Translations under genes and position numbers: made by a program
Source: Siderastrea radians
Taxonomy: Eukaryota; Cnidaria; Anthozoa; Scleractinia; Rhizangiidae
Direction: 5' to 3'
NCBI GenBank assembly: GCA_964017195.1
Contig: OZ024896.1
Location: 186,001 to 250,000 of the forward strand
DNA: 64,000 bases
Part shown: positions 39,839-63,630 of the stretch, piece by piece
Numbering within the stretch: position 1 is the first letter of the stretch
Layout of the letters: the number at the start of each line of letters is the position of its first letter
Notes under the pieces: generated by a model
Database searches by the model: none
Told to the model about the DNA's origin: nothing
The model's input: the letters and a program-made list of their open reading frames with translations, nothing else

Positions 39839-39926
39839 TTCTTTCAATCGTTTCGATTGCGCAAAATATTTTTTGCTAGACACAAAACTATCGTTTTGTT
39901 TGGTCATCACTTTATTAAAATGTTGT

Positions 39927-39968
39927 GGTTCTTAAAAGAACCGTTGGTTTTTGGCTCCTAAAAGAGCC
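39927..39968 (-). terminator. Two histone-type 3' stem-loops plus downstream box
   Basis: On the minus strand, 3 nt after the stop of the gene ending at 39,972, GGCTCTTTTAGGAGCC (39,968-39,953) is followed by GGTTCTTTTAAGAACC (39,942-39,927) and then, near 39,900-39,915, AATAAAGTGATGACCA. The stem-loop matches the metazoan histone mRNA 3'-end consensus. The downstream box recurs after the other copies. Confidence 0.75.
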
Positions 39969-39971
39969 GAG

Positions 39972-40394
39972 TTAGAAGTGAACAGTGACAATTTCTTGGG
40001 TGATTTTCTTGATGTAGGCTTGAGTGGATGGTTTCAGTAGTTCTTTTCTGTAGAGGCAGAGAAACGGGTGGGTTGGACGTTGACAGCGGACAAACCGATG
40101 CCAGATCTTCTTTCCCTCTTTCTTGGTTTTCTGCTGGTAAAGTCTCGCTACATACCACTGCTGCGTGTCTTCATCGTAGACAAAAGTCTTCTTCTTTAAC
40201 AGGATACAGGTTTGAATCAGGATACCCGTAGAATCATACAAATGATAGCGTTTGGAATCTAATAAACCAAATCCACAAACAGTCTCTTCGTTTTCAAGCA
40301 TAGGTAAAATTTGTTGAAAAGCCTCAACCTTAAGTGGAGGAATTTTGAAACCGAAATAGGAATTGACTTGATCAAAAAGTTGTTTAGTCTCCAT
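39972..40394 (-). CDS. Rossmann/SLOG-like protein A (divergent)
   Basis: 140 aa from ATG 40,394. The block ETVCGFGLLDSKRYHLYDST plus KKKTFVYDEDTQQWYVARL parallels the AFG.L.E......GG.GW..Q.A......VYVYD....W block of the two proteins at 58,166 and 58,818. Here the Gly-rich GW segment is degraded (STGILIQTC). The family resembles small Rossmann-type SLOG/YpsA nucleotide-binding proteins carried by phages and large viruses; the role is unknown. A TATAAG box overlaps the stop codon of the upstream gene, and a TCATTCTAC motif precedes the ATG. The transcript would end in the histone-type stem-loop. Confidence 0.7.
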   Translation of the reverse strand: METKQLFDQVNSYFGFKIPPLKVEAFQQILPMLENEETVCGFGLLDSKRYHLYDSTGILIQTCILLKKKTFVYDEDTQQWYVARLYQQKTKKEGKKIWHRFVRCQRPTHPFLCLYRKELLKPSTQAYIKKITQEIVTVHF

Positions 40395-40398
40395 GGTA

Positions 40399-40434
40399 GT
40401 AGAATGAATAAACTCTGAAAACGTTCAGCTTATA
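40399..40434 (-). promoter_or_regulatory. Promoter of the 39,972-40,394 gene
   Basis: Reading down the minus strand: TATAAG (40,434-40,429), ACGTTTTCAG (40,424-40,415), TCATTCTAC (40,407-40,399), ATG at 40,394. The same three blocks in the same order precede the gene starting at 57,451. The TATAAG overlaps the stop of the gene at 40,430. Confidence 0.65.
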
Positions 40435-41011
40435 TGAGTTTGTCGCCCCGCTCTTTTAATTGATTTTGTAACCATTGAAAAAATAAAAAGGTTTCTTGTT
40501 TGGGACAATGAATAAACTTAAAGGTGTCTTGTTTATGATGCCCGCATGATTTTCCCGGTGGATAACAATGATCACGAAGCGGTGGATAACCATAAAGCGA
40601 ATCGGCTTTCGGACAACCAAACTCTTCTAAGTTTACCGACGGTAATCCCATCTTGTCAAGTAAATCTTTTTCTAAATGTCCGCCTTTGTAAGCCACAACA
40701 CCACCGCGGTAGAGCGCCCGAATTACACCCTCAAGATCTCGTTGCGGTAAAGCCGCTTCTTGGAAACTGGCCTCAAAGCGTAAACCGTGCACGTGGTGGT
40801 AGACGCATTTGACCGTTCGCCGATCTTTATAATTTAAATCGCGGTAGCGTAGGCGAGAATAAAAATGTTGACTATCATTTTCACCTTGCATTGTACACCA
40901 ACCTAACTCGCGAACGATAAAACCGCTAGAAAGACGAAAGCCTTCCAGATCAATAATCAATGTGATCTCTTCCATATCTTTTCTAAAATAAAACTTTGTT
41001 CTCTCGGTCAT
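40430..41011 (-). CDS. DEDDh exonuclease-like protein
   Basis: 193 aa from ATG 41,011. The segment TLIIDLEGF (residues 17-25) gives the D-x-E of exonuclease motif I. Then come RTVKCVYHHVHGLRFE, GGVVAYKGGHLEKDLLDKM and LEEFGCPKADSL, and a Cys/His-containing end. This order matches a family of uncharacterised DEDD/RNase-H-fold-like proteins multicopy in cnidarians and arthropods and often tied to mobile elements, from memory. The third acidic residue and final His were not placed with confidence. It is divergently arranged with the DNA polymerase across a 1-kb regulatory region. Activity is inferred. Confidence 0.55.
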   Translation of the reverse strand: MTERTKFYFRKDMEEITLIIDLEGFRLSSGFIVRELGWCTMQGENDSQHFYSRLRYRDLNYKDRRTVKCVYHHVHGLRFEASFQEAALPQRDLEGVIRALYRGGVVAYKGGHLEKDLLDKMGLPSVNLEEFGCPKADSLYGYPPLRDHCYPPGKSCGHHKQDTFKFIHCPKQETFLFFQWLQNQLKERGDKLI

Positions 41012-41089
41012 TGATATTATAAAATCGCATAAGCGAAAAGAACAATGAAGCGGGCTTGCCCGAACATGTCGCTAACCGACACAATAGAA

Positions 41090-41172
41090 CTCGACGTCAG
41101 AATAGAGCTACACCCAATTCAATAGAAACTACGTCACAGCTGCACCCAATTCAATAGAACCCACGTCACAAT
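41090..41172. promoter_or_regulatory. ACGTCA cluster upstream of the polymerase promoter
   Basis: Three diverged repeats of about 33 nt carry ACGTCA-type half sites followed by 'caatag' or 'cagctgc' (41,094, 41,132, 41,163). The same 'cgtcacaatag' word marks the 72-bp repeats at 57.6-57.8 kb. They probably bind the same CREB/ATF-type factor. Confidence 0.5.
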
Positions 41173-41200
41173 AGACGCGCGCGTGCGACCCAAAATTTGT

Positions 41201-41230
41201 TATAAAAACCCGCGATTTTCAGTCAGTTTA
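41201..41230 (+). promoter_or_regulatory. DNA polymerase promoter (TATA + initiator)
   Basis: TATAAAAACC at 41,201 is followed by GCGATTTTCAGTCAGTT, an initiator-like sequence about 20 nt downstream. The ATTTTCAG word matches the ACGTTTTCAG box of other promoters in the element. Transcription from here needs splicing to reach the polymerase ATG. Confidence 0.6.
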
Positions 41231-41621: not shown

Positions 41622-41640
41622 AGAAGCTTTGCTTCGCAAG
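41622..41640. repeat. GAAGC mini-hairpin, copy 4 (reverse orientation)
   Basis: AGAAGCTTTGCTTCGCAAG; complement of the standard form with an AAA triloop. It lies within the inferred intron. Confidence 0.8.
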
Positions 41641-41673
41641 AAAAAGAGTCACTCGCTTTCTACGTGCCAAAAA

Positions 41674-41999: not shown

Positions 42000-44900
42000 A
42001 TGGATACGTACATGGATTTGTTCGATGACGATGCGGTTTTACTGGAAGCCATGGAGGCATATGAAGACGGCGAGTTTGCGGACCGCGCGATGGAATTGTA
42101 TTTACGTCGGGAAGAGCAACGGGAATTTCAGCGACAACTAATTGAGCAGGATGGTGGAGCGGTCGATCCCAATCAACCAGGACGTTTCGAATTTGAACTG
42201 CAACCTCTCCCTCGCCGTACCAACCGTCGTTATGGAGTCGCCGAACGCAATTACAACGTGCAGCTTCGCCAAGTGGGGAACGTAGTAGATCAACTTGCAC
42301 CAGCTATCCGCGACGCGATGCAGCGTTCCGTCGCTCAAGTCCTGGATAATGACGCCATTCCAGACAACCACCGTCTTTTCTTTGACCTGTTCTCCAACCG
42401 TCTGGCCCAAGGTACCTACCGCTCTAATGGCATGACAGTGGGTGATTGGAGACACAACCCTAACCGCGTGGATGAGATCTTCAACAATTTACAGAACACT
42501 CTCAATAGTAACGAGGAATTTGTGATGAACGATACTTTCCATATGGAGGTAACTACCGTAGCGCCCGTCTACCGGAATGTCCGTGGTCGCCGCAACCGTG
42601 GAAGACGTAGTAAAGCCGCGTACCAAGGAATCACCAAGTTCCTCGCCACCAACAAGTCCATTATTAAGATCGATAACACTAAGGACAATATGTGTGCTGC
42701 TCGTGCCATCACTGCTTCTAAAGCTGCTATGGACTACCCCGCCAACCACCCTATGAGGAAAAAACTTATGAAAACAGAAAAGAAGATTTCAGACAAGACG
42801 CAGCGAGACGCAGCCCTCGCCTTATGTCAATCAGCTGGTGTCGACCCCGAGTGTGCCGTAGGCGCGGACGAGTTAGCGAAATTTCAAGCGGTCCTCACTG
42901 GCTACCAATTGGTCTGCATTTACAGTGGTCGTAATCACGAGGCGGTTGCGTTTTCCCCCTATGCTCCAGACAAGAAGGTCCTACCAATAGTGCATGTTGA
43001 CGACCATTATCATGGATGCCGCAGTCTGACCGGTTACCGTCAAACCTCGTATGTGTGCAAGTACTGTTTCCGTGGTTATGAAGTGGAGGGTCATCACCGA
43101 TGTGAGTCTGTGGAGAATGTGAAATTCTGCCCTTGCTGTAGACGCGATGAATGTCCCGGATTTCTAGAATCCCAACCGCAAGGGTTAAAACCTAAGCACA
43201 AGTGCGGTCCTTGTGGTCGATATTTCCATGGGGAAACCTGCTTCAACCATCACCTCAAGTTTAACGCAGCTGGTAAAGAATCACCCAGCGACAGCATCTG
43301 TCAGACCGTCCGTCGTTGCCCGCGCTGTAAGAAGATCAACCGCACTAAACAAGAGATCAAGTCCCACGTCTGCGGTTACGCCTCCTGTCCCACCTGTTTA
43401 GACTACGTGCTGTTAGAAGATCACAAATGCTTCATTGAAAGTGCAGGCAAAGTGCGGGCGAAACGTCAAGCAGCCGCTCTCGAGAAGAAACTGGCGAAAC
43501 GCCGCAAGAAGGCAGCAGAAGCCGCAGCCGCAGACGCAGATTCCGATGTGGAGCCCTCTGACCTAGCCGAAGAATTGTTTGGAGAGGAAGAAGCAGACAA
43601 CCTCAAAGAACCTAATCCGTACTATGACAATCCACCGATTCACGTCTATTATGACATTGAAGCACAGCAAGAAACAGGGACGCACGTGGCTAACCTCTTG
43701 ATCTATCAGACGGATCGGGGAGAGGAAGTGACCTTGTGGGGAGAAACCTGTATCGAACGCTTTATCAAAGAACTCAAGGAACTTAGTGACAAAAATCAAC
43801 GAAGAGTGATAGCGATCGCCCACAACATGCAAGCCTACGATGGCTACTTTGTCGTCAACGAAATGTACCGCGACGGATTAGAAGTCTCTCAGATACGCAA
43901 TGGGGCTAAGATTTTAGAACTCGAGCATTTTCATGTTCGCTTCATAGATTCATTAAATTTCTTCGCCATGCCGTTGAAGGCGTTCCCAGCTACCTTCGGT
44001 CTCAGCTACAAGGACTCGAACGGAGAGGAACTGCACTACGCCAAGGGATACTTCCCGCATCTTTTCAATACCAAGCAGAATGAAGACTACGTAGGACCGC
44101 TACCTGACAAGTCCTTCTACATGCCGGAGACCATGGGAGTAGATGATCTCAAAAAGTTCGAAAAGTGGCATGCGGATCAAGTCAAGAGCAATGCTGTGTT
44201 TGATATGCGTCGAGACATTAAGAGTTACTGTGCTATGGATGTCACCATATTACGTGAAGGTTGTCAAACCTTTCAAAAACTGTTCCAGAAGGAGACGGAG
44301 ACTGTGGACGCCAAAGGAAACCTCATCCCAGGTTTTAATCCATTTGATCATGTTACTATCGCGAGTGCGTGTAATCGGGACATGATAAACCGTACGGACG
44401 ACAACACCATTGCTTCTGAACCTCCGTACGGCTGGGCTGGTCTGAAGGGGAATCAGTCAAAACAAGCTCTGGAATGGCTTCTCTGGATGCAACATCAAAA
44501 ACTTCAAGATTACACAACGGAGCAAGAACAGCAAGATGATGAAATGAAAGTCCCTCACTCTGAACGCGCCTACTTCATCCAGCACGCAGCCAATGGGGGC
44601 GAGAAAGTGATCCAGTACTGCGGTCAAGTGGACGGATTCTGCCAGAGCACCAACACCATTTACGAGTTTCAAGGATGCTTCTGGCATGGTTGTCAGACAT
44701 GCTTCCCAAACAGAACCGAGAGGCATACCCGACTGGACAACCGACAGATGTACGAAGTCCGCGAGGTCACCCGCGAGAAAGTCGCTAAACTCCGTAGCTG
44801 TGGGTACGAAGTCGTAGAAATGTGGTCCTGTCAATGGGAGGAGCAGAAAAAGCAGAACCCGGAGATTGCTGCCTTCGTGAAGAATTTAAGCCTCAAAGAC

Positions 44901-46409
44901 CGAATGAACCCCAGGGATGCGTTCTTCGGGGGAAGGACGAATGCAGCGACTCTGTACCACCGATGTGAAGATGGAGAGGTCATCAAGTATTACGACTTCA
45001 CTTCACTTTACCCGTACTGTAATAAGTATTCTGAATATCCGACGGGACATCCAGAAGTCCACTACAATCCGGAGAACCAGAACATCCACGGTTATTTTGG
45101 AGTGGCACAGTGCATTGTCCGCCCACCGCGTCAGTTGTACCACCCCGTCCTCCCCGTTCGTATTCAAGGCAAGTTGTTGTTCCCGCTCTGCACCGCCTGT
45201 GCTGAAGACCAATTAGAACGCCCGCTGTTGGAACGAAGCCCCGCCTGCCCGCACACCGACCTCGAAAGAGAGATGATGGGGACATGGTGCACTCCTGAAA
45301 TTGAAGAAGCCGTCAGTCAAGGTTATGAAGTAGTTCGTATCATTGAAGTCTACCACTTCCCCGAGGAACAGCGGAAAAAGGGGCTTTTTGCGAACTATAT
45401 TGACAAGTGGTACAGAATCAAAACCGAGGCGAGCGGATGGCCAGCTTGGTGTGACACGGAGGAGAAAAAATCAGAATTCATCAGACGTTTCAAAGCACGG
45501 GAGAACATTGATCTTAGAAGAGAAGAACTCGACAAAGGCGCCAATCCAGGACTCCGAAGTTTAGCCAAACTAATGTTGAACTCAATGTGGGGGAAGTTCG
45601 GTCAGCGTCCCAACAAGACCCAAGTGGCACACATTACCAACCCTCAGGAATTCCATGAATTCTTGGAATCGGACCGCATTGACATCCAGAAGATCCAACT
45701 ATTACCTGACCGAACGGACCCCACCAAAACCAGTGAGGAAGCCCTAGACGTCTTCTACACCCTCCGCAAAGAAGCAGAGGACATCAATGGCAAGTGTAAT
45801 ATTTTCGTGGCAGCATTTACCACCTGCTGGGCACGGCTCAAATTGTACCAGGAGTTGAAGAAAGGAGGTGAGCAGATATTGTACTACGACACAGACAGCA
45901 TCTTACTCAGAATCGACCCGTCCAACCCGTCCCACTACCAACCCGTCACAGGTGATTACCTCGGCGACCTTACCGATGAGTTATGGTGTAAGAAAACCAA
46001 ACAGTTCCGTACCATCCAGGAGTTCGCTAGTGCCGGTCCGAAAAACTATGGTTATGTGCGTGATGACCTCAAGGAGGAATGTAAAGTCAAAGGATTCAGC
46101 CTAAACGTGGAAGGTAGTAAGCAGCTAAACTATACTATTCTCAGGAACAACGTGCTTGAGGAGATTCAAAATCCTCAGTTCATTCAAGGACAAGTGGTAC
46201 GTCGTAAACATCCTATTACCAGAGCTCACAAAATTGTGCGGGACGTCGAACATTTGCAGTTGAAAACGGTCTCAGAGACCAAGAACTACCAGTTGGTGTT
46301 TGATAAGCGGGTGGTCGATGCTGACACATTTATGACTTACCCTTATGGGTACGGAACCTTGGATACCACGGGTATGGATATTGATATTAACGCACTCTTA
46401 GATTTGTAA
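42000..46409 (+). CDS. polB: Family-B DNA polymerase, protein-primed type (Polinton)
   Basis: 1469 aa from ATG 42,000. It replicates the element. Residues 1-330 form an acidic, then basic region; 350-520 hold many C-x2-C/H pairs (zinc-binding). Exonuclease motifs: D552/E554 in VYYDIEAQ, then IAHNMQAYDGYF and YCAMDVTIL. A segment VDGF ... YEFQGCFWHGC (about residues 873-897) is the endonuclease-like insertion typical of Polinton polymerases. Polymerase motif A is YYDFTSLYPYC (D999), motif B KLMLNSMWGKFG (K1190) and motif C YYDTDS (D1297, D1299). All catalytic acids are present and the frame is intact, so it should be active. It is the only large + strand gene and converges with the late block. 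Confidence 0.95.
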   Translation: MDTYMDLFDDDAVLLEAMEAYEDGEFADRAMELYLRREEQREFQRQLIEQDGGAVDPNQPGRFEFELQPLPRRTNRRYGVAERNYNVQLRQVGNVVDQLAPAIRDAMQRSVAQVLDNDAIPDNHRLFFDLFSNRLAQGTYRSNGMTVGDWRHNPNRVDEIFNNLQNTLNSNEEFVMNDTFHMEVTTVAPVYRNVRGRRNRGRRSKAAYQGITKFLATNKSIIKIDNTKDNMCAARAITASKAAMDYPANHPMRKKLMKTEKKISDKTQRDAALALCQSAGVDPECAVGADELAKFQAVLTGYQLVCIYSGRNHEAVAFSPYAPDKKVLPIVHVDDHYHGCRSLTGYRQTSYVCKYCFRGYEVEGHHRCESVENVKFCPCCRRDECPGFLESQPQGLKPKHKCGPCGRYFHGETCFNHHLKFNAAGKESPSDSICQTVRRCPRCKKINRTKQEIKSHVCGYASCPTCLDYVLLEDHKCFIESAGKVRAKRQAAALEKKLAKRRKKAAEAAAADADSDVEPSDLAEELFGEEEADNLKEPNPYYDNPPIHVYYDIEAQQETGTHVANLLIYQTDRGEEVTLWGETCIERFIKELKELSDKNQRRVIAIAHNMQAYDGYFVVNEMYRDGLEVSQIRNGAKILELEHFHVRFIDSLNFFAMPLKAFPATFGLSYKDSNGEELHYAKGYFPHLFNTKQNEDYVGPLPDKSFYMPETMGVDDLKKFEKWHADQVKSNAVFDMRRDIKSYCAMDVTILREGCQTFQKLFQKETETVDAKGNLIPGFNPFDHVTIASACNRDMINRTDDNTIASEPPYGWAGLKGNQSKQALEWLLWMQHQKLQDYTTEQEQQDDEMKVPHSERAYFIQHAANGGEKVIQYCGQVDGFCQSTNTIYEFQGCFWHGCQTCFPNRTERHTRLDNRQMYEVREVTREKVAKLRSCGYEVVEMWSCQWEEQKKQNPEIAAFVKNLSLKDRMNPRDAFFGGRTNAATLYHRCEDGEVIKYYDFTSLYPYCNKYSEYPTGHPEVHYNPENQNIHGYFGVAQCIVRPPRQLYHPVLPVRIQGKLLFPLCTACAEDQLERPLLERSPACPHTDLEREMMGTWCTPEIEEAVSQGYEVVRIIEVYHFPEEQRKKGLFANYIDKWYRIKTEASGWPAWCDTEEKKSEFIRRFKARENIDLRREELDKGANPGLRSLAKLMLNSMWGKFGQRPNKTQVAHITNPQEFHEFLESDRIDIQKIQLLPDRTDPTKTSEEALDVFYTLRKEAEDINGKCNIFVAAFTTCWARLKLYQELKKGGEQILYYDTDSILLRIDPSNPSHYQPVTGDYLGDLTDELWCKKTKQFRTIQEFASAGPKNYGYVRDDLKEECKVKGFSLNVEGSKQLNYTILRNNVLEEIQNPQFIQGQVVRRKHPITRAHKIVRDVEHLQLKTVSETKNYQLVFDKRVVDADTFMTYPYGYGTLDTTGMDIDINALLDL

Positions 46410-47800: not shown

Positions 47801-47991
47801 CGTCGTCGTCGTCGGTAATGTCTGATATTATCGGTAATTCCTTTAAGCGCTTGACCTGCGAGTTTACCGGCTGCGGTTGTAAACGTGGGAGCTGGTCCTG
47901 CTAACAAAAAACTAGCGCCGTAAGCCAATTTATCCACTAAACGTGGCTTTCTTCGACGTAAGGCACCTCCTCGCTGAAAAATTTTTGACAT
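47797..47991 (-). CDS. Small basic membrane-active-like protein (64 aa)
   Basis: MSKIFQRGGALRRRKPRLVD, a hydrophobic stretch (LAYGASFLLAGPAPTFTTA) and an Arg-rich end (HYRRRRR). The GG near the N-terminus is a possible adenain-type cleavage site. The layout resembles small core or membrane-lytic proteins of adenovirus-like virions, which is inference. It overlaps both neighbours. Confidence 0.6.
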   Translation of the reverse strand: MSKIFQRGGALRRRKPRLVDKLAYGASFLLAGPAPTFTTAAGKLAGQALKGITDNIRHYRRRRR

Positions 47992-48467: not shown

Positions 48468-48670
48468 GGTTTACACGTTTCAATCAGTTCACGAAAATAG
48501 GATTCTCCATAGTCGTCTATCATCTTATTTATAGGAATTTGTCCATGCTTGATTCGTTCAAAGAAAAACCATATCATAGCATAATCCATAGAATCAGGGG
48601 ACATGGCTTTCGCTTTGTCTTTCACATTTTCCACAAATTGCTGCCATTCTTTTACTGTCACCAACATCAT
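48452..48670 (-). CDS. Small helical protein (72 aa)
   Basis: Starts at ATG 48,670, which overlaps the ATPase stop (ATGA). An upstream GTG extension is unlikely. MMLVTVKEWQQFVENVKDKA, then MDYAMIWFFFERIKHGQIP. It is a compact helical fold of unknown role, tightly packed between ATPase and membrane protein. Confidence 0.6.
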   Translation of the reverse strand: MMLVTVKEWQQFVENVKDKAKAMSPDSMDYAMIWFFFERIKHGQIPINKMIDDYGESYFRELIETCKPWTHD

Positions 48671-49557
48671 GGTTCTTCGTAGATATTTTCCCACTTGCCT
48701 GTTTTAGGGTTTTTAATCGTACGACTAATCGTTCCCTTCTTAGGATGAGTCCAAAATTTCTTAGTAAATAGTCCCGCTTTTCCTGCAAACGCACTCTTGG
48801 CAATATCTCCACTCCAAAATCGGTCAAAAACGTGTCGTGTGGAAGGAATGAATTTTTTAGTAAGCCACTCGGCTTTCTTCGCCACCGTCCAAGGGGTAGT
48901 AAGACCTTGTCCTTTCTGATAACTTCGGGTCCAACCTTGGTCTTTTAACACATGGGATAACACGCGTTCCTCATCTCCCGAAGCGGGATGTAAGTCTAAC
49001 CACATGTAGCCAAAAGGTTCTTGCGTACAGGTTTGATAGGTCTCTAAACATTCTTTCCAACAAGTAGGAAAACTTTGTAGCAGTAAATTTCGGACCCCTA
49101 ATTGATCTCGAGGGTTTTTAAACGCAATGACATAATGGGCGTTTCGTGAAATACTTTTCGCATATTTCCCCGCTGGAAACATATCCTGACATAAGTACAA
49201 CACCGTAATGTCTCGATGATGGGAATGTTTGGTAAATAAATCCAAAACCCGTTTATCATGACTTCCTTCATCCATGAGGTCATCCATGACTAAAATTCCT
49301 TTACCTTGCGGAAACCATTGATCTAACTCTTCTAATTCAGGGATCCCCTCATGAAATTGCGCAAACGTCATATCGTTAAACTTGGGTTGCCAAGCTCCAT
49401 AACAATAATGAATACTTTCAGGGTAGGTTTCAAACAAATTCAAGTTCTCCCCTAACAATTTGTGGGTAAAGACTGTTTTTCCACACCCCGAAGGGCCTAC
49501 TATTAAGATGGAGGAAGGGGTATGAATCTGAAACGGTTGCACTAACGGAAATTCCAT
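48667..49557 (-). CDS. Genome-packaging ATPase (FtsK/A32-like)
   Basis: 296 aa from ATG 49,557 (MEFPLVQPFQIHTPSSILIV). An ATG at 49,599, overlapping the protease stop, would add 14 residues. Walker A is GPSGCGKT (residues 21-28); Walker B is ILVMDD (about 88-93), followed by the sensor region TKHSHHRDITVLYLCQDMFP. This is the A32/FtsK packaging motor of Polintons and large DNA viruses, which drives DNA into capsids. The C-terminus is basic. Confidence 0.9.
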   Translation of the reverse strand: MEFPLVQPFQIHTPSSILIVGPSGCGKTVFTHKLLGENLNLFETYPESIHYCYGAWQPKFNDMTFAQFHEGIPELEELDQWFPQGKGILVMDDLMDEGSHDKRVLDLFTKHSHHRDITVLYLCQDMFPAGKYAKSISRNAHYVIAFKNPRDQLGVRNLLLQSFPTCWKECLETYQTCTQEPFGYMWLDLHPASGDEERVLSHVLKDQGWTRSYQKGQGLTTPWTVAKKAEWLTKKFIPSTRHVFDRFWSGDIAKSAFAGKAGLFTKKFWTHPKKGTISRTIKNPKTGKWENIYEEP

Positions 49558-49592
49558 TCTTGTATAGGATAGACATAAAATGAGACATAGAG

Positions 49593-50141
49593 TTACCATG
49601 CTACGCTTTTTATTACTTTTTCACGAGGTTGACAACATTGATTCAGAAAGGTCGTACTAGGCATAGGTAGTGGATCTAATATCGTGGCTACTTTTTGATC
49701 ATTTTGGACATAATCGTGATCGGAAAATAAAGCTAAGAAATCTGATAAAGTCCCACCCCTTGCTTTTAATTTAAGATAAGCTAAACAATAATGTCCACAG
49801 GCGGCACTGTGTAATCCTTGTAAAGTGGTTCCATTCGTCACCCACCACCCTGGTGGTTCTCGGGTCGTGATCCAGTCAATCAGGGGTTGTGTCGTTCGAT
49901 ACCATTCCAAAGGTAACCCATAGCTATCCATGACTTCAATCAATTGGTTTTCTAACCAGAGCGCTATCCAATGTTGACCCGGTTGTCCTGTGGGATCCGT
50001 GTTAACAATATAACACACATTCTTTTTAGGTGGACGGGGTAACCCATCACAAGGAAACGTTCCACCAAAGATCTTCTTCAATGTAGGGTCTTGATTGACT
50101 ACCAGATTCAATTCTTGGGTGGATAAGGGCACATACTCCAT
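49593..50141 (-). CDS. Adenain-type maturation cysteine protease
   Basis: 182 aa from ATG 50,141. The catalytic set is visible: His57 in GQHWIALW, Asp72 in VMDSYG, Gln108 in TLQGL and Cys115 in SAACGHYC. It is the Polinton/adenovirus protease that cleaves capsid and core precursors after GG-type motifs. Several small basic proteins of this block carry such GG sites near the N-terminus. A TATAAC box lies near 50,185. The 3' end overlaps the longer ATPase start. Confidence 0.9.
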   Translation of the reverse strand: MEYVPLSTQELNLVVNQDPTLKKIFGGTFPCDGLPRPPKKNVCYIVNTDPTGQPGQHWIALWLENQLIEVMDSYGLPLEWYRTTQPLIDWITTREPPGWWVTNGTTLQGLHSAACGHYCLAYLKLKARGGTLSDFLALFSDHDYVQNDQKVATILDPLPMPSTTFLNQCCQPREKVIKSVAW

Positions 50142-53376: not shown

Positions 53377-54411
53377 TTATTCGGTAGCCTTTTTAAAGTG
53401 TAGGGTGAGTAAGGTGTGGTCGTCTTTAAACTTGACCAGTTCTTCGCCAGATGTTGTGTTTTCCGTCAGGTTCACTGTAATGATATCAATCACTTCCCGT
53501 CGTACGGATAAATAGTGAATATGTTCTGGTTCATAGTAAACTTTACCTCGACCTTGACGTGGATAATGCACTTCCTTTAACAAATCTGTAAAACGATTCC
53601 CTACCATAGAACTACCACCCACATCGGAATACACATACAAAGAACGGTTCGGGTGAGTCACCAAACGATCAAACATACGGTTCAACTCTGAAAATCTCCA
53701 ACTACAACGACCTGTCAAATAAAACCAAGTGACTCCTTGACTATCGGTTTCCTCTCGCATGTACAAGTTCTTACCATCTTTGTCCCGAAAATCGTATTGA
53801 CCCCGTGTGACAATCCGGCCACCATGGTAAACAATCTGGAGATTTAACCCAAGTTCCCAAGCTTTTTGATCATTTTGACGAACCCACCCCATTTTCACAC
53901 CAAAATCCTGGGAAAAAGCAAAGATGGGTAGTGGATCATTGACTCCACTGAACCGCTTTCGTATCAGTTTGCTGTTATCCATAAGGACATCACCCTCGTC
54001 TATAGAAAACTTGAGATAGGTATGTTTTCCAGCATCCTCATCCAGACTTTCATACTCTCGCTTGAATTCTTGATTAAATTGATCTTGATACCATAACTGT
54101 ACGGCTTTCATAAAGGTCACACCATCTTGAATAGGAAACTTGGTTAAATCCTGTAAGGTCAGACGATGTATCTTGTAAGCAAACGTAGTATCTTTTTTCT
54201 TACGCACCGAGGACATGATGAACAAATCCTGATCCAAAGGTTGAATATGCGATAAATCCAATCCACGATCCGGTATAGACATGGAAGCTAAACCGACTTG
54301 CCAATCATCTCCTAACAGACGTAACGGTTCCGCCAGACGGACTTTAAACGAACTGGGTTGATTGTTAGGAAATTCTTTAAGGCTACTATGACTGGGTAGG
54401 GTCACGTACAT
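53377..54411 (-). CDS. Penton/minor-capsid-like protein (intact copy)
   Basis: 344 aa from ATG 54,411. It starts MYVTLPSHSSLKEFPNNQPS, followed by FKVRLAEPLRLLGDDWQVGL, the conserved start of this Polinton-associated family. Late conserved blocks are SLYVYSDVGGSSMVGNRF, YEPEHIHYLSVRREV and the end DDHTLLTLHFKK. The neighbour 52,303-53,339 is a tandem duplicate at roughly 40-45% identity, so the pair is old and both may once have been used. TATAAC lies about 30 nt 5' of the ATG. The ATG lies 26 nt inside the integrase frame. Confidence 0.7.
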   Translation of the reverse strand: MYVTLPSHSSLKEFPNNQPSSFKVRLAEPLRLLGDDWQVGLASMSIPDRGLDLSHIQPLDQDLFIMSSVRKKKDTTFAYKIHRLTLQDLTKFPIQDGVTFMKAVQLWYQDQFNQEFKREYESLDEDAGKHTYLKFSIDEGDVLMDNSKLIRKRFSGVNDPLPIFAFSQDFGVKMGWVRQNDQKAWELGLNLQIVYHGGRIVTRGQYDFRDKDGKNLYMREETDSQGVTWFYLTGRCSWRFSELNRMFDRLVTHPNRSLYVYSDVGGSSMVGNRFTDLLKEVHYPRQGRGKVYYEPEHIHYLSVRREVIDIITVNLTENTTSGEELVKFKDDHTLLTLHFKKATE

Positions 54412-55453
54412 CTTCCTTGCTTATCCAACTGTTATACTTGGTCGGCCACCCTTTCCATTGAACCAACAACTGATTCTTGCGACGTTTAAGTACTTTTTCG
54501 ATGCGAAACACATCATCCGTATAGACTTTTTGTAAGTCCTCCTCGTAAAAAGTTCCATCAACAGGGGTCCCATCCCATTCCGTGATCTTGTAAGCCGGAA
54601 AGGGTTTGACTTTCTCTACCAAAAACACTTCTTCTGTCCACCCGGGTAAATATCCTTTAGCAAAAGGACGATGAATTTTATTCAGACGAACCTTGTCTCC
54701 TTTTTTCAAAGTGGGTTTACGAATTTTGGGTGGTTTTCCGTACAGCGTTTTCCAAACTTGTTTTTCATTTTTGAGGGTCACCTCTTTCGGAGCCATCTTG
54801 ATACTACTATGTTCACTCGCATTGTAGCCTTTGACTAACTCGGGTAACACATCTGTAAATTTGAGTGTATTCGCTGCCGTAAAATACCGATACAACCTTT
54901 CTTTGAGGGTCCGATTAAATCGTTCTACCACCGCTGCTTTGGCATCGCCACCCGTGGAAAAATGATGAATGTTGTTCTTTTTCAACCAGACTGTCATCTC
55001 CTTGTTGTAAAACTCTTTACCTTTATCCGTTTGTAACTTCAAAGGTTGTCGTCCTTCTTTCAGAATTTGGTCAAAGGCTTTCACAACCGTCGGTCCTTTC
55101 TTGTCTTTAAGGGGTTGAACCCATGCATATTTGGATAAAATATCAATCACTGTCAGCAAATAGCGAATCCCCTTGTTTTCTTTGGCAATATTTTGCGTTT
55201 CGATCAAATCCGCTTGCCATTGCTCATCTCGACTCATGACTTGAATGGGTAAGGTGGGAAAGCCTTTACGTCGCCTAGGTCGATGTAGGGTATAGGCTAA
55301 ATCTTTGCGCAATAAATTTTGAGCGCGTTTGTTAGAAATTTTCCATGTTTTAGCAAAACGTTCCACTCCACCTAAACTACCGGGTTTAGAGGGATCTCGA
55401 TATCGTTTAAGGAGAGCTTGGGCTGGAGTGACTTGTTTCTTTTTAGAAACCAT
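54386..55453 (-). CDS. int: Retroviral-type integrase with chromodomain
   Basis: 355 aa from ATG 55,453. It inserts the element into host DNA. An N-terminal helical segment is followed by the DDE core: D82 in WQADLIE, D143 in LQTDKGKEF and E177 in AAVVERFNR. An SH3-like region (KKGDKVRLNKIHRPFAKGYL) and a C-terminal chromodomain (RIEKVLKRRKNQLLVQWKGW, then WISKEDV) follow. This is the standard Polinton integrase. All catalytic residues are present. Chromodomains can guide insertion to modified histones. It overlaps the upstream gene by 82 nt. Confidence 0.95.
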   Translation of the reverse strand: MVSKKKQVTPAQALLKRYRDPSKPGSLGGVERFAKTWKISNKRAQNLLRKDLAYTLHRPRRRKGFPTLPIQVMSRDEQWQADLIETQNIAKENKGIRYLLTVIDILSKYAWVQPLKDKKGPTVVKAFDQILKEGRQPLKLQTDKGKEFYNKEMTVWLKKNNIHHFSTGGDAKAAVVERFNRTLKERLYRYFTAANTLKFTDVLPELVKGYNASEHSSIKMAPKEVTLKNEKQVWKTLYGKPPKIRKPTLKKGDKVRLNKIHRPFAKGYLPGWTEEVFLVEKVKPFPAYKITEWDGTPVDGTFYEEDLQKVYTDDVFRIEKVLKRRKNQLLVQWKGWPTKYNSWISKEDVRDPTQS

Positions 55454-57493: not shown

Positions 57494-57578
57494 CTCTACA
57501 ACAGTCCCGACATGCACTATTTTTGTTGTGACGTATTACTACAAAAGAGTTTGGGCTTACCCTAGGATAAACATCCGG

Positions 57579-57794
57579 TATAAGACAAAAGAGCTGCACC
57601 TGTTTGACGTCACAATAGTTTGTCTGAACCTGCCCTTAGCGTGGGGACGCTATAAGACAATAGAGCTGCACCTGTTTGACGTCACAATAGTTTGTCTGAA
57701 CCTGCCCTTAGCGTGGGGACGCTATAAGACAATAGAGCTGCACCTGTTTGACGTCACAATAGTTTGTCTGAACCTGCCCTTAGCGTGGGATAAA
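57579..57794. promoter_or_regulatory. Three 72-bp tandem repeats with CRE sites
   Basis: Units start at 57,579, 57,651 and 57,723 and differ by one or two bases. Each has TATAAGACAA, GAGCTGCACCTG (an E-box) and a perfect TGACGTCA (CREB/ATF site) followed by CAATAG. The repeats lie between the divergent GRF-finger gene and the + strand accessory genes, the position of a shared enhancer. The long + frame through them is an artefact of a 72-nt period. Further CGTCACAATA words occur at about 57,815 and 58,081. Confidence 0.8.
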
Positions 57795-59387: not shown

Positions 59388-59422
59388 TTGCTTTGTAGGT
59401 CATTGCTTTACTTAGAAGTGGT

Positions 59423-59438
59423 GGTTCCTAAAAGAACC
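59423..59438 (-). terminator. Histone-type 3' stem-loop of the kinase gene
   Basis: On the minus strand GGTTCTTTTAGGAACC followed by ACCAC, 20 nt after the kinase stop, then TAAAGCAATGACC about 12 nt on. Same module as at 39.9, 63.25 and 63.58 kb. The loop strand orientation (TTTTA) matches the minus strand. Confidence 0.75.
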
Positions 59439-59457
59439 GTTGTTGTAAAATAAAAAT

Positions 59458-60156
59458 TTAAAACTGCAACTGCTCCGCGTCTGGTCTCTGTGTAGGGTCT
59501 TTGTGCCATAACATCTGAAACTCAGGGTCGGGGCTCGGGCGTCGGTTAAATGCGACGACTTGATAGATGAGTACGACATCTTGTTTTCCGTGGTAGGGAA
59601 TCTGCTGGTGTTTTAACGCCCACAAGGTCACAGCGAGCGAATAAATGTCTGCCTTGATCGTTGGTAGCTCCCCTTGAAAAAGTTCCGGCGCGCGATAGGC
59701 GATCGTTCCTAAGCAGGCGGAATGGCGGGGTTGATCACGTGGTTGCGAGCATCCAAAGTCGATGATCTTGCATTGCTCTTGTGGGTTGATTAAAATGTTC
59801 GCGGGTTTCAGGTCTAGATGTAGGATGTTGTGAGCGTGTAGGTAGCTGACCGCTTCGACGAGTTGTTGAGCCAAGGTTCTCCAACGGTAAAGTAGATGAT
59901 CCTCGATCAGCGTTTGCAAAGTGGAGGCTTCAGGAATGAACTCCATGACAATCATCTCAGGTTCGGCGGCGAGTAGGCGGATGATGTGTGGATGGTTTAC
60001 ATTCAGAGCGCGTGCTTCTGCTTGAAATGCTTCGCGGGTGGCATTAGGATTTTTTGTTGAAGTTTTCATACGTTTCACAGCAACTAATTTTCCTTGGTAG
60101 ACCCCCTCATACACCTCAGCAAAACCACCGCTACCTAAACGCTTACGCAGCTCCAT
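59458..60156 (-). CDS. Mos-like serine/threonine protein kinase
   Basis: 232 aa from ATG 60,156; a TCATTCATTCTAC initiator-like motif lies just upstream, so the longer frames to 60,264, which read through repeats, are unlikely. Gly loop LGSGGFAEVYEG (7-18), Lys28 in LVAVKRMK, Glu47, catalytic loop ILHLDLKPANIL (Asp115, Asn120), DFG 133-135, RAPELF and ADIYSLAVTLW. HLD in place of HRD and the DFGCS wording point to the Mos family, kinases upstream of MAPK in oocyte meiosis. All catalytic residues remain, so it should be active. It is compact, with no other domain: a captured host signalling gene, by inference. Confidence 0.85.
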   Translation of the reverse strand: MELRKRLGSGGFAEVYEGVYQGKLVAVKRMKTSTKNPNATREAFQAEARALNVNHPHIIRLLAAEPEMIVMEFIPEASTLQTLIEDHLLYRWRTLAQQLVEAVSYLHAHNILHLDLKPANILINPQEQCKIIDFGCSQPRDQPRHSACLGTIAYRAPELFQGELPTIKADIYSLAVTLWALKHQQIPYHGKQDVVLIYQVVAFNRRPSPDPEFQMLWHKDPTQRPDAEQLQF

Positions 60157-60160
60157 CGTA

Positions 60161-60192
60161 GAATGAATGAAAGCAACCATGTGCGTTTTATA
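60161..60192 (-). promoter_or_regulatory. Kinase promoter
   Basis: Minus strand TATAAA at 60,192-60,187 and TCATTCATTCTAC at about 60,170-60,158, right before ATG 60,156. The TCATTCTAC word is shared with the 40.4-kb promoter. The 5' UTR would be only a few nt. Confidence 0.5.
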
Positions 60193-60195
60193 CCG

Positions 60196-60300
60196 GCTTT
60201 GATAAACCGCTCGGATCGAAAAACGCATACTAATGTGAACGCTTTGAAAAACCGCTCGAATCAAATAACGCCTACTAATGTGAACGCTTTGAAACGCCGC
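60196..60300. repeat. 45-bp tandem repeat upstream of the kinase
   Basis: AAACCGCTCGGATCGAAAAA at 60,204 and its copy at 60,249 lie in units ending 'ctaatgtgaacgctttga'; about 2.3 units. It lies between the divergent kinase and F-box-like genes. Confidence 0.65.
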
Positions 60301-60395: not shown

Positions 60396-60671
60396 ATGGC
60401 GAACGCTATTCAGAGATCAAAGTTCTACGACTACTTGGCGCTCGTGAACGCGGGTGCGGTTCAGAAAACCAGCTGGTGGGATTACCTTCCGACCGAAATA
60501 CAAATTTATATCATCCAGTTAGCCATCCGACAGAACCATAGAGATCAACTAGCAGACGTTCACCAGGTAATGCGTCATTATTGGAACATTTGCGATTGCG
60601 GTCCCTTCCATATGCTGATGGAAATTATTTTTTGCGAAGAATATCGTATCTCCTGCGGTATTCGTGCTTAC
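60396..60671 (+). pseudogene. F-box-like gene: common 5' exon and module A, split by piggyBac
   Basis: From ATG 60,396: MANAIQRSKFYDYLALVNAG, then WWDYLPTEIQIYIIQLAIRQ and DQLADVHQ. The LP.E....I ... L..V pattern is F-box-like, suggesting a Cullin-ligase adaptor; that is inference. After DVHQ a GTAATG donor-like site occurs at 60,576. Unspliced reading continues into module A (HYWNICDCGPFHMLM). The frame is cut at TTAA 60,672 by a piggyBac element and resumes in the same phase at 63,121. With splicing to 63,361 the same 5' part would instead join module B. Confidence 0.6.
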
Positions 60672-63120
60672 TTAACCCATTGCTGTCCAAAGGTTCTATC
60701 GCGCGTGACACCCCCCAAAAGCCAGCCATTTTACATTCTTCCCTGCGTTACGCAAGCACTAAAAATAAACCATATGCGCAGTAAACACACACACAAGATC
60801 GGGTTTCCAAACAAAGTTTATTCAAAACCATGGTAACGGAAAGGCCAAAATGTGCCAAAACATTGAAAATGAAAGACCAAAAACGTGTCTAAAAGCCAAT
60901 CTGAAAACCAAAAATCGAAAAAATCCAATTGCCGCGCGATACTTCGCGAAAGTGAAATGAACAACGCACACAAACAAAAGACATTTCGAAACCAAATGGA
61001 AGCCAAACATGACAGCTAACAATATGTACATTAACAGTATTATTTCGTTGAGTTTCTTGCAGGATCACGTTGTGGATTTTTCGGCAGCTGAAGACTCAGG
61101 ATACGAAGAAGTTCAACCCAGATTAACCGCATGATAAATAGGAAAACAATTTACCCGACACAAAGCAACCCCGCACTGCACGCATTCATAACTAGTTTCT
61201 ACAGGCCCGCCCTTTGGAGTCTTAATTCCCACCCTCTTACACCGGACACATTGTCTTTTCCCCCTCTTAATACCCTTAATTTTCTCACAGAAATGCTTAC
61301 CAGCGTTCTCCTCTTCGAGCGAAAAATTCTCAATTTTGCGACGCTTTGTTGATTGCGCGGCCGAAACGCTAGATGAAAACCCCCCGATAAGTTGCTTTGA
61401 AAGAGTAGTGCGAAAATCTACCTGCTTCAATTTGGGTTTCCCCTGCCCAACACAGAAATGATTATACAAAATGAAAGCATTACAAACTGAAACATCAATG
61501 GAATACCAAAACAAATACTTATACCACTTCTTACAAGAACGCCCTGTTGAATAATACTTACGAAGTTGATCAGCGAGATCAACACCCCCCATGTTTTCGT
61601 TGTACAAAGCGATTACAGCTGGCTTGTGGACCTGTTGATTGTGTCTTCGAATGACAACATCAGGGACATCTGGACTCGAATTTGAGGAAAGGACAAGGAC
61701 ATCCCTTTTATCGTGCCATTTAGTAAAAACTATCTTACCCTTTTGCCTAACAATCTTCCCCCCGGGACGCAATTTTTGCCGAGCACATGGCGGCAAGTCT
61801 TTGCGGTTTACTCTCACGGTCGCACAAGCAAAAGTGTCTTGAACCCGCAAATGCTCTAAAAGCCTAACCGAACTGAAAAAATTATCGAAGTAAACATGGT
61901 GGTTTTTATTCATAAAAGGGGTAATCATCTTAGTAACAACATCATAACCCAAACCATGAATTCGCCGTTGCCCCGTTTCCTTCCCCAAATAAACATCAAA
62001 ATTCAATACGTACCCGTTGCTTGAGTCCGCGGCCATCCAAACCTTGATTCCGTATTTTGTCGGCTTTGCCGGCATGTACTGACGAAAAGAAAGTCTACCC
62101 CTAAATGGAACCATACCTTCATCGACAGAAATATTTTTAGTGGGACTGAAATTAGTTTCGCATTTAGTTCTAACATAATTTAGAACGGGCCTTACCTTGA
62201 ACAGTCGATCATAGCCGGGAGTTCCACGGGCCACTTCTTGAGTGGAATCATTGAAATGAAGAAAACTGCTAATTTCTCTAAATCTATTCCTTGGCATTAC
62301 CTTCTTAATTCCTACATTTCCGAAAAAATCATCGCTTGACCAGTACGAGTCTATAGTGGGAAGCCTAACCATGCCCATAATTATATTTACCGCAAGGAAA
62401 GCTTTCAATTCAACGAGTGTAACGGGATGAAAATTTGCGAGGCGCGCGGGGAAATCTGCAAGCTTTTGGCGAGCATAAAGGTTAGTTTCTGTAACTAGTT
62501 TATTTAGCAGATCATCACCCATAAAAGCTAAAAAGAAATCTACTGGTTTGGGATTATCGGGAAGCTGAAAATTAATGCCGGAAGCCGAAACAAAATCAGG
62601 AATACGAAGGTCAGTGAGCTGGTCGGTCCAGCGCAATTCATCAAAATCTTCATTATCACCCACCTCTTGTTCGGCATCTTCTCCAGCTTCACTCCCATCT
62701 TCGTCGCTATCTAAATCGCTAAAATCAAGATCAGAATCATCGTTAGAAACGGTTCCCCCAGTATTAAACCCATAGAAACTTTCTTCGTCCCCTGAGTCCT
62801 CAGAAACTGACGCGTTATCTGAAACGTGATCTCCATTGTCAGCCATCGTAATTCGATCGCGCGAGATTAAAAAATCTGGGAAATTCCCGACCTCGTGGCT
62901 CATCTCACAACCTGTCAAAAAATGCGCAAAACACAGCATTTGATTGGTTAATTTGTCCTTTAGGTATCTATGACAACAAACAACGACAAAAACGCTGTTG
63001 GAGGGTGGGGAGGGTTCGTTTATTTTCGTGCTTCATTACGGCCGGCTCAGGCCGGCACGGCTTTTAGAGGGGGTGTTTTCGCGCGGCCGGCTCAGGCCGG
63101 CACGGACGCCAATGGGTTAA
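60672..63120. mobile_element. piggyBac transposon with TTAA duplication
   Basis: TTAA at 60,672-60,675 and at 63,117-63,120 flank a 2,441-bp insert. The terminal repeats are CCCATTGCTGTCC (60,676) and, complemented, CCCATTGGCGTCC (ending 63,116): 11 of 13 match. A duplicated subterminal block GGCCGGCTCAGGCCGGCACG lies near 63,040 and 63,085. It encodes a full-length transposase on the minus strand. It interrupts the F-box-like gene of the virus-like element, so it arrived later. Confidence 0.9.
61113..62903 (-). CDS. piggyBac transposase
   Basis: About 596 aa from ATG 62,903; ATGs at 62,939 and 62,846 are alternatives. An acidic N-terminus is followed by the DDE_Tnp_1_7 domain: ELKAFLAVNIIMGMVRLPTI and YWSSDDFF, first Asp in ISVDEGMVPFRGR, second in HVYFDNFFSS, third in ENMGGVDLADQ. 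The C-terminal Cys-rich domain (CVRCKRVG ... TSYECVQCGVALC) binds the ends. All catalytic residues are present and there are no stops, so the copy looks young and possibly active. The gene fills most of the 2.4-kb element. Confidence 0.95.
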   Translation of the reverse strand: MSHEVGNFPDFLISRDRITMADNGDHVSDNASVSEDSGDEESFYGFNTGGTVSNDDSDLDFSDLDSDEDGSEAGEDAEQEVGDNEDFDELRWTDQLTDLRIPDFVSASGINFQLPDNPKPVDFFLAFMGDDLLNKLVTETNLYARQKLADFPARLANFHPVTLVELKAFLAVNIIMGMVRLPTIDSYWSSDDFFGNVGIKKVMPRNRFREISSFLHFNDSTQEVARGTPGYDRLFKVRPVLNYVRTKCETNFSPTKNISVDEGMVPFRGRLSFRQYMPAKPTKYGIKVWMAADSSNGYVLNFDVYLGKETGQRRIHGLGYDVVTKMITPFMNKNHHVYFDNFFSSVRLLEHLRVQDTFACATVRVNRKDLPPCARQKLRPGGKIVRQKGKIVFTKWHDKRDVLVLSSNSSPDVPDVVIRRHNQQVHKPAVIALYNENMGGVDLADQLRKYYSTGRSCKKWYKYLFWYSIDVSVCNAFILYNHFCVGQGKPKLKQVDFRTTLSKQLIGGFSSSVSAAQSTKRRKIENFSLEEENAGKHFCEKIKGIKRGKRQCVRCKRVGIKTPKGGPVETSYECVQCGVALCRVNCFPIYHAVNLG

Positions 63121-63224
63121 GAGGCCGAAATCGTGTCATCTTTCGATGTCAAACCTGGTGTAGAAAACCTAACCCAATCTATCAACAATTTGCTTTGGAG
63201 CAGCCAGAAGACGAGGAAGATTAA
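63121..63224 (+). pseudogene. 3' remainder of the F-box-like gene, module A
   Basis: After the right TTAA the frame continues with RGRNRVIFRCQTWC and ends EQPEDEED-stop at 63,224. The phase agrees with the 5' part across the insert. The acidic end matches that of module B (RKDEEEED). A histone-type stem-loop follows 26 nt later. Confidence 0.65.
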
Positions 63225-63250
63225 ATACTCATTTGCGAATGAGCAAAAAC

Positions 63251-63266
63251 GGCTCTTTTAGGAGCC
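63251..63266 (+). terminator. Histone-type 3' stem-loop, module A
   Basis: GGCTCTTTTAGGAGCC followed by ACCAAATCTAAATAAAGTGATGACC. It matches the histone mRNA consensus stem-loop with ACC flank; the downstream box is shared with three other copies. Confidence 0.8.
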
Positions 63267-63308
63267 ACCAAATCTAAATAAAGTGATGACCAGCAAAAGA
63301 ATTATTTC

Positions 63309-63326
63309 TTACGAAGCATAGCTTCT
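63309..63326. repeat. GAAGC mini-hairpin, copy 7
   Basis: TTACGAAGCATAGCTTCT, identical to copy 8, between modules A and B. Confidence 0.85.
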
Positions 63327-63360
63327 GATTACTTATTTTGTGTATCTTTTTATTTGACAG

Positions 63361-63555
63361 ATTCTCGAAAAGCTGTGGAACATTTGCCGCTGCGGCCCCA
63401 TCCATGTCCTGAAGGAGTACAACTTCATCAAAAAAAGAAAATGGAAAGTGACCTGTGGTATACGACAATCCCTCGGACTCCAAGGCTACCGATTTACCAA
63501 AAGTTGGGCGCTGAAAACCTTAGGCTGCCGTAAAGACGAAGAAGAAGAGGATTAA
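63361..63555 (+). CDS. F-box-like gene: alternative 3' exon, module B
   Basis: A pyrimidine-rich acceptor (TTTTTATTTGACAG, ending 63,360) opens a frame with LWNICRCGPIHVLKEYNFI, RKWKVTCGIRQSLGLQGYRF and the end CRKDEEEED-stop. It is homologous to module A (YWNICDCGPFHM, CGIRAY). There is no ATG of its own in a good position. Splicing from GTAATG at 60,576 would place it right after DVHQ, exactly where module A starts. So it looks like an alternative terminal exon. The Cys pattern (C-x-C ... C) suggests a metal-binding C-terminal module. Confidence 0.55.
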   Translation: MLEKLWNICRCGPIHVLKEYNFIKKRKWKVTCGIRQSLGLQGYRFTKSWALKTLGCRKDEEEED

Positions 63556-63575
63556 AACCTCAATAAAAAATCAAC

Positions 63576-63591
63576 GGCTCTTTTAGGAGCC
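63576..63591 (+). terminator. Histone-type 3' stem-loop, module B
   Basis: GGCTCTTTTAGGAGCC then ACCACATCTAAAATAAAGTTATGACC, 21 nt after the module B stop. The stem is identical to module A's and the downstream box nearly so. Confidence 0.8.
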
Positions 63592-63630
63592 ACCACATCT
63601 AAAATAAAGTTATGACCAATAAACTGTAGC

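Follow-up and report, generated by a model that had tools for sequence, protein, structure and literature searches.

In animals, a stem-loop at the 3' end is described as a feature of histone mRNA that sets it apart from all other transcripts (PMC12775136, as excerpted). The locus described here raises the question of why five hairpins of this kind lie behind genes that do not code for histones. We analyzed a stretch of 64,000 nucleotides of Siderastrea radians contig OZ024896.1 (the window), in which all five hairpins fall within a 25.7-kb Maverick/Polinton-type element (38,966-64,650). The termini of the element are 392-bp inverted repeats that are 99.2% identical, with a target duplication of 7 nt; the usual length for Maverick/Polinton elements is 6 nt. 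The element has in common with Maverick/Polinton elements and adintoviruses a PolB gene, an rve integrase with a chromodomain, an adenovirus-type protease, and terminal inverted repeats with a target duplication, and it has a candidate A32-like packaging ATPase with a weak match (Table 1). It differs from them in that a defined set of accessory genes bears histone-type ends. We searched 50,216-51,592, 52,303-52,809 and 53,377-54,411 with Pfam for a double jelly-roll major capsid protein and a penton, and there was no match in these three intervals.

Table 1. Features of the element and its histone-type gene ends, in window numbering.
Feature	Position	Strand	Remark
Left terminal inverted repeat	38966..39357	+	partner at 64,260-64,650, just past the window end
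tRNA-Ala(TGC)	39628..39702	-	inside element
tRNA-Met(CAT)	39737..39808	+	inside element
Downstream box TAAAGTGATGACC, ORF A	39902..39914	-	HDE-type
Histone-type stem 2 of ORF A	39927..39942	-	pair 3 is T-A, not C-G
Histone-type stem 1 of ORF A	39953..39968	-	no box of its own; in tandem with stem 2
ORF A ("SLOG-like A")	39972..40394	-	140 aa; ends in tandem histone-type stems
EXO, DEDD-exonuclease fold	40430..41011	-	no stem of its own in the window; ORF A directly next
Type B DNA polymerase	42000..46409	+	PF03175, 150 bits
A32-like packaging ATPase, candidate	48667..49599	-	PF04665, 19.4 bits, sub-threshold (cut-off 22.8)
Adenovirus-type protease	49593..50141	-	PF00770, 22.0 bits (cut-off 21.3)
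Retroviral-type integrase with chromodomain	54386..55453	-	PF00665, 46.8 bits; PF00385
Downstream box TAAAGCAATGACC, kinase	59398..59410	-	
Histone-type stem, kinase	59423..59438	-	
Protein kinase	59458..60228	-	PF00069
F-box-like module 1, first part	60396..60836	+	gene split by piggyBac element
piggyBac-type transposase	61113..62939	-	PF13843; separates both pieces of module 1
Histone-type stem, F-box-like module 1	63251..63266	+	
Downstream box TAAAGTGATGACC, F-box-like module 1	63279..63291	+	
F-box-like module 2, part homologous to module 1	63358..63474	+	
Histone-type stem, F-box-like module 2	63576..63591	+	
Downstream box TAAAGTTATGACC, F-box-like module 2	63605..63617	+	
tRNA-Trp(CCA)	63661..63734	-	inside element
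tRNA-His(GTG)	63874..63944	+	inside element

The hairpins had been predicted from the letters of the window, and their coordinates and coding strands were confirmed for all five. The distance from stop codon to stem, given in the original prediction as 3-45 nt, was found to be 3-29 nt (3 and 29 nt for stems 1 and 2 of ORF A, 19 nt for the kinase, and 26 and 20 nt for the F-box-like modules). A downstream box was present in all four clusters, as predicted, and its start was 12-13 nt after the stem rather than anywhere from 12 to 20 nt. Among the gene names proposed at the same time, that of the kinase agrees with its Pfam match. For "F-box-like" there was only a PRANC match below threshold (17.6 bits, cut-off 25.8), and "SLOG-like" drew no support from a fold search of ORF A. 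Protein searches, which do not include DNA context, identified 90 relatives of EXO, the protein from the window among them, and 17 relatives of ORF A. A search of the phages collection with EXO yielded no match.

The stems stand out from the rest of the window. A 16-nt stem pattern allowing up to two mismatches matched 12 times, compared with 0.83 expected from shuffles, and these matches represent six palindromic places, namely the five stems and a sixth at 50,639-50,654. A generic GG(6 bp)TT..CC hairpin occurred five times, in every case at a known stem, compared with 0-3 times in each of 20 Markov resamples. The letters of the box, with up to three mismatches, matched 24 times against 21.05 expected and are thus not rarer than chance; what makes the box meaningful is where it lies and how well it agrees with host histone genes, not its letters alone. 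The Rfam histone 3' end model (RF00032, Histone3) reached its gathering score in two of the four clusters, at 39,902-39,947 on the minus strand (35.5 bits) and 63,571-63,614 on the plus strand (35.0 bits). Under an E-value threshold the model also matched 63,246-63,290 on the plus strand (34.0 bits, absent from the gathering list with its cut-off of 34) and 59,399-59,443 on the minus strand (31.4 bits, below that cut-off). Stem 1 of ORF A had no Rfam match of its own.

The Histone3 model was also run across the genome, and it matched the ends of element genes. There were 75 scored matches, of which 73 were above the cut-off, histone genes included. We examined 71 of the 75 together with the surrounding locus and found that the preceding gene belonged to the element family in 44 cases and was a histone gene in 25, with two assigned to neither. 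The seven best-scoring matches were all downstream of element genes. In total, 36 hairpin-bearing element loci were examined in this one genome, some of them being the two ends of a single copy. We also considered "unpicked" gene ends, that is, ends that no scored match had selected, at loci that had been entered through another matching end. A hairpin was present at 25 of 33 unpicked ends in the four accessory families and at none of the 40 unpicked ends belonging to the remaining element genes (Fisher p = 6e-13), and the same comparison without the window gave 22 of 28 and 0 of 23 (Fisher p = 2e-9). By family, the unpicked ends with a hairpin were 4/4 for the kinase, 18/21 for the F-box-like genes, 1/1 for ORF A and 2/7 for EXO. 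The stem was therefore absent from five of these seven EXO genes, and EXO homologues at several other loci do bear one. Outside this genome, three protein scans of viral_contigs with the capsid-region ORF, EXO and the integrase found no related elements, and two DNA-pattern scans found no histone-type ends.

We compared 57 unique non-histone ends with 33 unique histone ends. The UUUA loop was found in 54/57 non-histone and 32/33 histone ends, AAC 5' of the stem in 54/57 and 31/33, and ACC 3' of the stem in 48/57 and 32/33. A GA[CT] box was located 17-24 nt past the stem in 55/57 non-histone ends and 16-21 nt past it in 30/33 histone ends. Forms of the box include AAAGCAATGACC, AAAGTTATGACC and AAGCTTTTGACC, the last being present in 13 of 55 element or other ends and in none of 30 histone ends. 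Metazoan replication-dependent histone 3' ends (RF00032, SLBP/U7 pathway) likewise have a 6-bp GG..CC stem, a 4-nt U-rich loop, AAC and ACC flanks, and a similarly spaced downstream box, and they too lie some tens of nucleotides past the stop codon. The ends described here differ from them in that they belong to a mobile element and terminate its kinase, F-box-like, exonuclease-fold and ORF A genes, in the tandem stems behind some ORF A copies, and in the AAGCTTTTGACC box variant; they share the dialect of the histone genes of their own host. Because host histone genes share the hairpin, flanks, box and approximate distance, we conclude that the box is a host-type histone downstream element. 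It had been suggested that the box might replace the U7 site; since the box is also present in host histone genes, this alternative is unnecessary. The Sm-type site of U7 snRNA is AATTTGTCTAG. An Rfam search at gathering level in 15 examined loci found no U7 gene, the matches being to tRNA and Histone3 only.

The presence of histone-type hairpins at the ends of several element genes suggests that the machinery of host histone mRNA has been borrowed, and a stem, loop, flanks, box and spacing that all match host histone ends are best explained if the element uses the pathway by which its host forms histone 3' ends. The same features could be read in a different way, since polyadenylation is possible where box regions hold AATAAA or ATTAAA, as many do. 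If the AATAAA overlapping the box were the main signal, most accessory mRNAs would be polyadenylated and the stem would be active under some conditions only. In 26 of 55 element or other ends one of the two motifs falls between the stem and GA[CT], and about half of the ends have it overlapping or preceding the box. Human H2AC18, a histone gene rather than a virus-like element, shows alternative processing where PAS and HDE overlap (PMC9756948, as excerpted). Host histone genes, however, show the same overlap in 13 of 30 ends, and the other 29 of the 55 have neither motif and still keep stem and box. We consider such dual use unlikely. A further possibility is that the stems act as decoys that titrate SLBP or 3'hExo and upset host histone supply, with the processing of the element's own mRNAs being secondary. 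Each element has several stems, in tandem behind ORF A in the window and at locus L033, and EXO has the general fold of 3'hExo. That fold match is tied with many other nucleases, and both a position at gene ends and a box at histone spacing would be superfluous for a decoy, which we regard as very improbable.

Among the 57 ends, several stem pairs were altered on both sides. Pair 3 changed from C-G to T-A in five ends and pair 1 from G-C to A-T in one, while pair 6 was T-G in 45, C-G in seven and T-A in four. Three cells were non-standard (C-C at pair 1 in L002, C-C at pair 2 and A-G at pair 6). This covariation and the restriction to certain gene families give the borrowing of host 3' ends further support. 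When kinase copies were compared in 78 pairs, identity was 36% at fourfold-degenerate sites and 92% in the stem plus 3 nt, the latter figure being biased because the RNA search had picked 10 of the 13 copies. In the three other copies (the window, L014 and L022), stem identity was 68-79% against 31-44% at fourfold sites, and all six pairs are still formed. These data also bear on the idea that histone 3' UTRs were accidental captures that multiplied along with the element and serve no function, which has a precedent in a suggestion made for rRNA genes of polinton-like viruses (PMC12220804, as excerpted). Most copies do have identical stem letters, as passive spread would predict, but stems occur on four gene families and are absent from others, and they persist despite near-saturated synonymous sites with pairs that change together. 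Hitch-hiking of this kind is exceedingly improbable.

Building on the observed sequence, position, gene specificity, host match and conservation of the ends, we predict how these transcripts would be made. Behind four accessory gene families, the Maverick/Polinton-type endogenous virus has complete histone-type 3' ends in the dialect of its host. The stem would most likely be bound by host SLBP and the downstream box paired by the U7 snRNP, with the pre-mRNA cleaved a few nucleotides past the stem. The accessory mRNAs would then end in the stem-loop without poly(A), would be stabilized and translated in the manner of histone mRNA, and would be expressed mainly in S phase, when element DNA can replicate. 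Judging from sequence, we think it likely that host SLBP/U7 processing yields accessory mRNAs lacking poly(A), and that these are probably linked to S phase. An E2F-like site in a shared kinase/F-box promoter was found in only 2 of 18 loci, so that S-phase control received no support from this test. More tentatively, the element may represent a family of endogenous DNA viruses with a poly(A)-independent accessory programme, in which host-regulating proteins are made from SLBP/U7-processed, histone-like mRNAs, accompanied by adjoining tRNA genes of its own. Such a programme would couple expression to S phase or to those stages of germ line and embryo in which the machinery for histone mRNA is abundant. 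It would also free accessory genes from host poly(A)-based control.

In Mimivirus, too, the ends of viral mRNAs are set by a hairpin, which differs in leading to viral polyadenylation and in having no histone consensus. Here a virus-like element carries the histone signal on non-histone genes throughout the 36 loci of one genome. If the ends are processed as expected, they would be natural evidence of a parasite capturing the SLBP/U7 pathway, would supply non-histone substrates for testing the effect of the signal alone, and would offer a direct way to study how the accessory genes of an endogenous virus are coordinated with DNA replication in the host. Among the literature matches listed, which cover few subscription journals, there was no report of histone-type ends of this sort apart from one count. 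A 2025 scan that included 8300 PLV genomes counted 6 Histone3 matches and 558 tRNA matches in polinton-like virus and virophage genomes (PMC12220804). In the excerpted text of that study, Histone3 appears as a bare count with a single main-text mention and without discussion of gene, host or function, whereas the ends reported here form a gene-specific, host-matched and conserved set.

The histone-type hairpins lie in a Maverick/Polinton (adintovirus-like) element, which is bordered at either end by TCCAGTA and carries its genes between inverted repeats (see table). Because a piggyBac-type transposase splits F-box-like module 1, the stem at 63,251 lies behind the second piece of that module. 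The SLATT domain, familiar from bacterial defence systems, is encoded here by a eukaryotic virus-like element. Upstream of the GRF gene, each tandem repeat contains TGACGTCA (CRE-like) and ACGTCACAATA, and six copies of the latter lie in the element's portion of the window, with none in the 39-kb host flank. EXO belongs to a protein family (P0001-P0090) that has no convincing Pfam match, and Maelstrom is among its best matches.

Features of the element (window numbering)
Feature	Position	Evidence or remark
Inverted repeat	38,966-39,357; 64,260-64,650	392 bp, 99.2%; second copy just outside window
Histone-type stems	39,953-39,968; 39,927-39,942; 59,423-59,438; 63,251-63,266; 63,576-63,591	
Type B DNA polymerase	between inverted repeats	domain search
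Retroviral-type integrase with chromodomain	between inverted repeats	domain search
Adenovirus-type protease	between inverted repeats	domain search
A32-like ATPase	between inverted repeats	sub-threshold match
Phospholipase A2-like ORF	between inverted repeats	domain search
GRF zinc-finger protein	between inverted repeats	domain search
Protein kinase	between inverted repeats	domain search
SLATT_1 domain protein	47937-48467	PF18181, 40.1 bits, cut-off 26.3
piggyBac-type transposase	61,113-62,939	separates two pieces of F-box-like module 1
EXO	40430-41011	DEDD-exonuclease fold
Tandem repeats	57576-57791	three of 72 bp
tRNA genes	39628-39808; 63661-63944	inside inverted repeats; also L029 132-206

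The original prediction placed five stems on the coding strands of named accessory genes, and inspection of the window sequence confirmed both positions and strands. The histone stem-loop covariance model (Rfam Histone3, RF00032) reached its gathering score at two places in the window; two further places scored 34.0 and 31.4 bits. A generic hairpin of histone-type shape occurred five times, each time as one of the five stems, and 0 to 3 times in 20 resamples. Scans with the stem pattern and the generic hairpin found no such structure in the host DNA that borders the element on its left. Behind ORF A, two stems stand in tandem (window 39927-39968; L033 528-569 (-)), the first without the downstream box and the second, 10 nt on, with it. 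At L045 535-571 (-) and L027 4973-5011 (-), a variant first stem lies 5-7 nt ahead of the common one.

The window covers 186,001-250,000 of contig C10 in an 805-Mb genome (G000), which its histone clusters with stem-loop ends suggest to be that of an animal. We searched the whole genome with RF00032 and scored 75 of 169,525 first-look candidates, so that the counts are lower bounds. The surrounding DNA was examined for 71 of the 75 (4 were left out), and the preceding gene was assigned by translation and tblastn of upstream DNA. Of the 71 matches, 44, at 36 loci, lay 3' of element genes (F-box-like 17, kinase 15, EXO 8, ORF A 4). Histone genes preceded 25 (H2B 10, H2A 7, H1 4, H3 4), and two strong histone-type ends, L018 4811 (+) and L027 4988 (-), could be assigned to no histone gene and to no recognised element gene. 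Among the matches scored and examined, the top seven scores were all 3' of element genes. Polymerase, integrase or GRF genes were also present at 13 of the 18 element-gene loci among L001-L028, where the main matches have ~49-97% protein identity to the window copy; the remaining five loci, each a 3-kb piece, show accessory genes only. At L051-L053 (G000:C1 14356438, 14382029, 14407620), three matching histone-type ends follow one another at intervals of exactly 25,591 bases, close to the length of one element, which suggests that three element copies stand in tandem. Four places (L015, L016, L017, L057), distributed over three contigs, have near-identical element ends, a sign of recent copying.

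Most loci had been selected by an RNA-model match. For a less biased count we therefore used only gene ends that no scored match had picked, after removing six near-identical loci and near-identical ends. The hairpin was present at 25 of 33 such ends (kinase 4/4, F-box-like 18/21, ORF A 1/1, EXO 2/7) versus 0 of 40 ends of other element genes, namely polymerase, capsid-region, ATPase, protease, integrase, GRF, SLATT, phospholipase, two ORF A paralogues and small ORFs (Fisher p = 6e-13). Excluding the window, which was sampled because of the finding itself, the counts were 22/28 versus 0/23 (p = 2e-9). Neither of two piggyBac ends had the hairpin. The three F-box-like misses were the piggyBac-cut piece in the window, a fragment (L022) and L004, where the stem is actually present and the stop was mis-mapped. 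For two of the five EXO misses (window, L021), an ORF A gene or piece lies immediately downstream, and at L033, L045 and L046 the scored match sits 3' of ORF A. EXO and ORF A may share one transcript at these loci.

Across 57 unique non-histone ends, the stem showed compensatory changes, with pairs varying on both sides: pair 3 was C-G in 51, T-A in 5 and T-G in 1; pair 6 was T-G in 45, C-G in 7, T-A in 4 and A-G in 1; pair 1 was G-C in 55, A-T in 1 and C-C in 1; and pair 2 was G-C in 56 and C-C in 1. Thirteen kinase copies (78 pairwise comparisons) had a mean protein identity of 66%. Their fourfold-degenerate sites were 36% identical, near saturation, versus 92% for the stem plus three nucleotides, a value inflated because the RNA search had picked 10 of the 13. 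In the three unpicked copies, stem identity was 68-79% versus 31-44% at fourfold sites, and six of six pairs were retained.

Host histone genes served as a control. The same kind of hairpin ends H1, H2A, H2B, H3 and H4 genes (L009, L010, L012, L013, L020, L023, L024), and host boxes include AAAGCAATGACC and AAAGTCATGACC. We compared 33 unique histone ends with 57 unique non-histone ends, two or three of which are really histone-related. The UUUA loop was found in 32/33 versus 54/57, AAC before the stem in 31/33 versus 54/57, ACC after it in 32/33 versus 48/57, and a GA[CT] box ~20 nt after it in 30/33 versus 55/57. The original prediction had also noted a second box, possibly an element-specific substitute for the U7 site. 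Since histone and non-histone ends agree in these features, this box is a histone downstream element of the host type. A variant, AAGCTTTTGACC, occurred at 13/55 element or other ends and 0/30 histone ends.

In histone 3'-end formation, SLBP recognises the stem together with its flanks, the U7 snRNP base-pairs to the downstream element, and CPSF73 cuts between the two; the resulting mRNA has no poly(A), is most abundant in S phase and is degraded at its end. At the level of sequence, the element ends hold the parts of this signal in the host's dialect. We infer that accessory transcripts would be processed as histone mRNAs, by SLBP, U7 snRNP and CPSF73. If expression were also of the S-phase type, which is a guess, the kinase, F-box-like and exonuclease-fold proteins would be made during the cell's DNA replication; E2F-like promoter sites occurred in just 2 of 18 loci and give this no backing. 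AATAAA or ATTAAA lies between the stem and box end at 26/55 element or other ends and 13/30 histone ends. The layout resembles one described for human H2AC18, at which either machinery is able to act (PMC9756948).

A 2025 Rfam scan of polinton-like virus and virophage genomes counted six histone 3' UTR stem-loops and 558 tRNAs; the stem-loops have a single mention in the main text and are undiscussed in section 16 (PMC12220804). The motif's presence in such elements was therefore already recorded, as a number. Added here are the gene specificity, the host-histone match, the downstream element and the conservation. Among the papers listed in our literature search, which covered few subscription journals, nothing further on such motifs appeared. 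Relatives in other genomes are known here as proteins only. tRNAs in polinton-like viruses were likewise published previously (PMC12220804). In our element, tRNA genes for Ala and Met lie on the left and for Trp, His and Ala on the right, and tRNAs were found in 12 of 20 loci scanned (L004, L006, L011, L014-L017, L019, L021, L022, L025, L026). A Trp and His pair repeatedly adjoins the F-box-like module (L014-L017, L019, L021, L022, L025).
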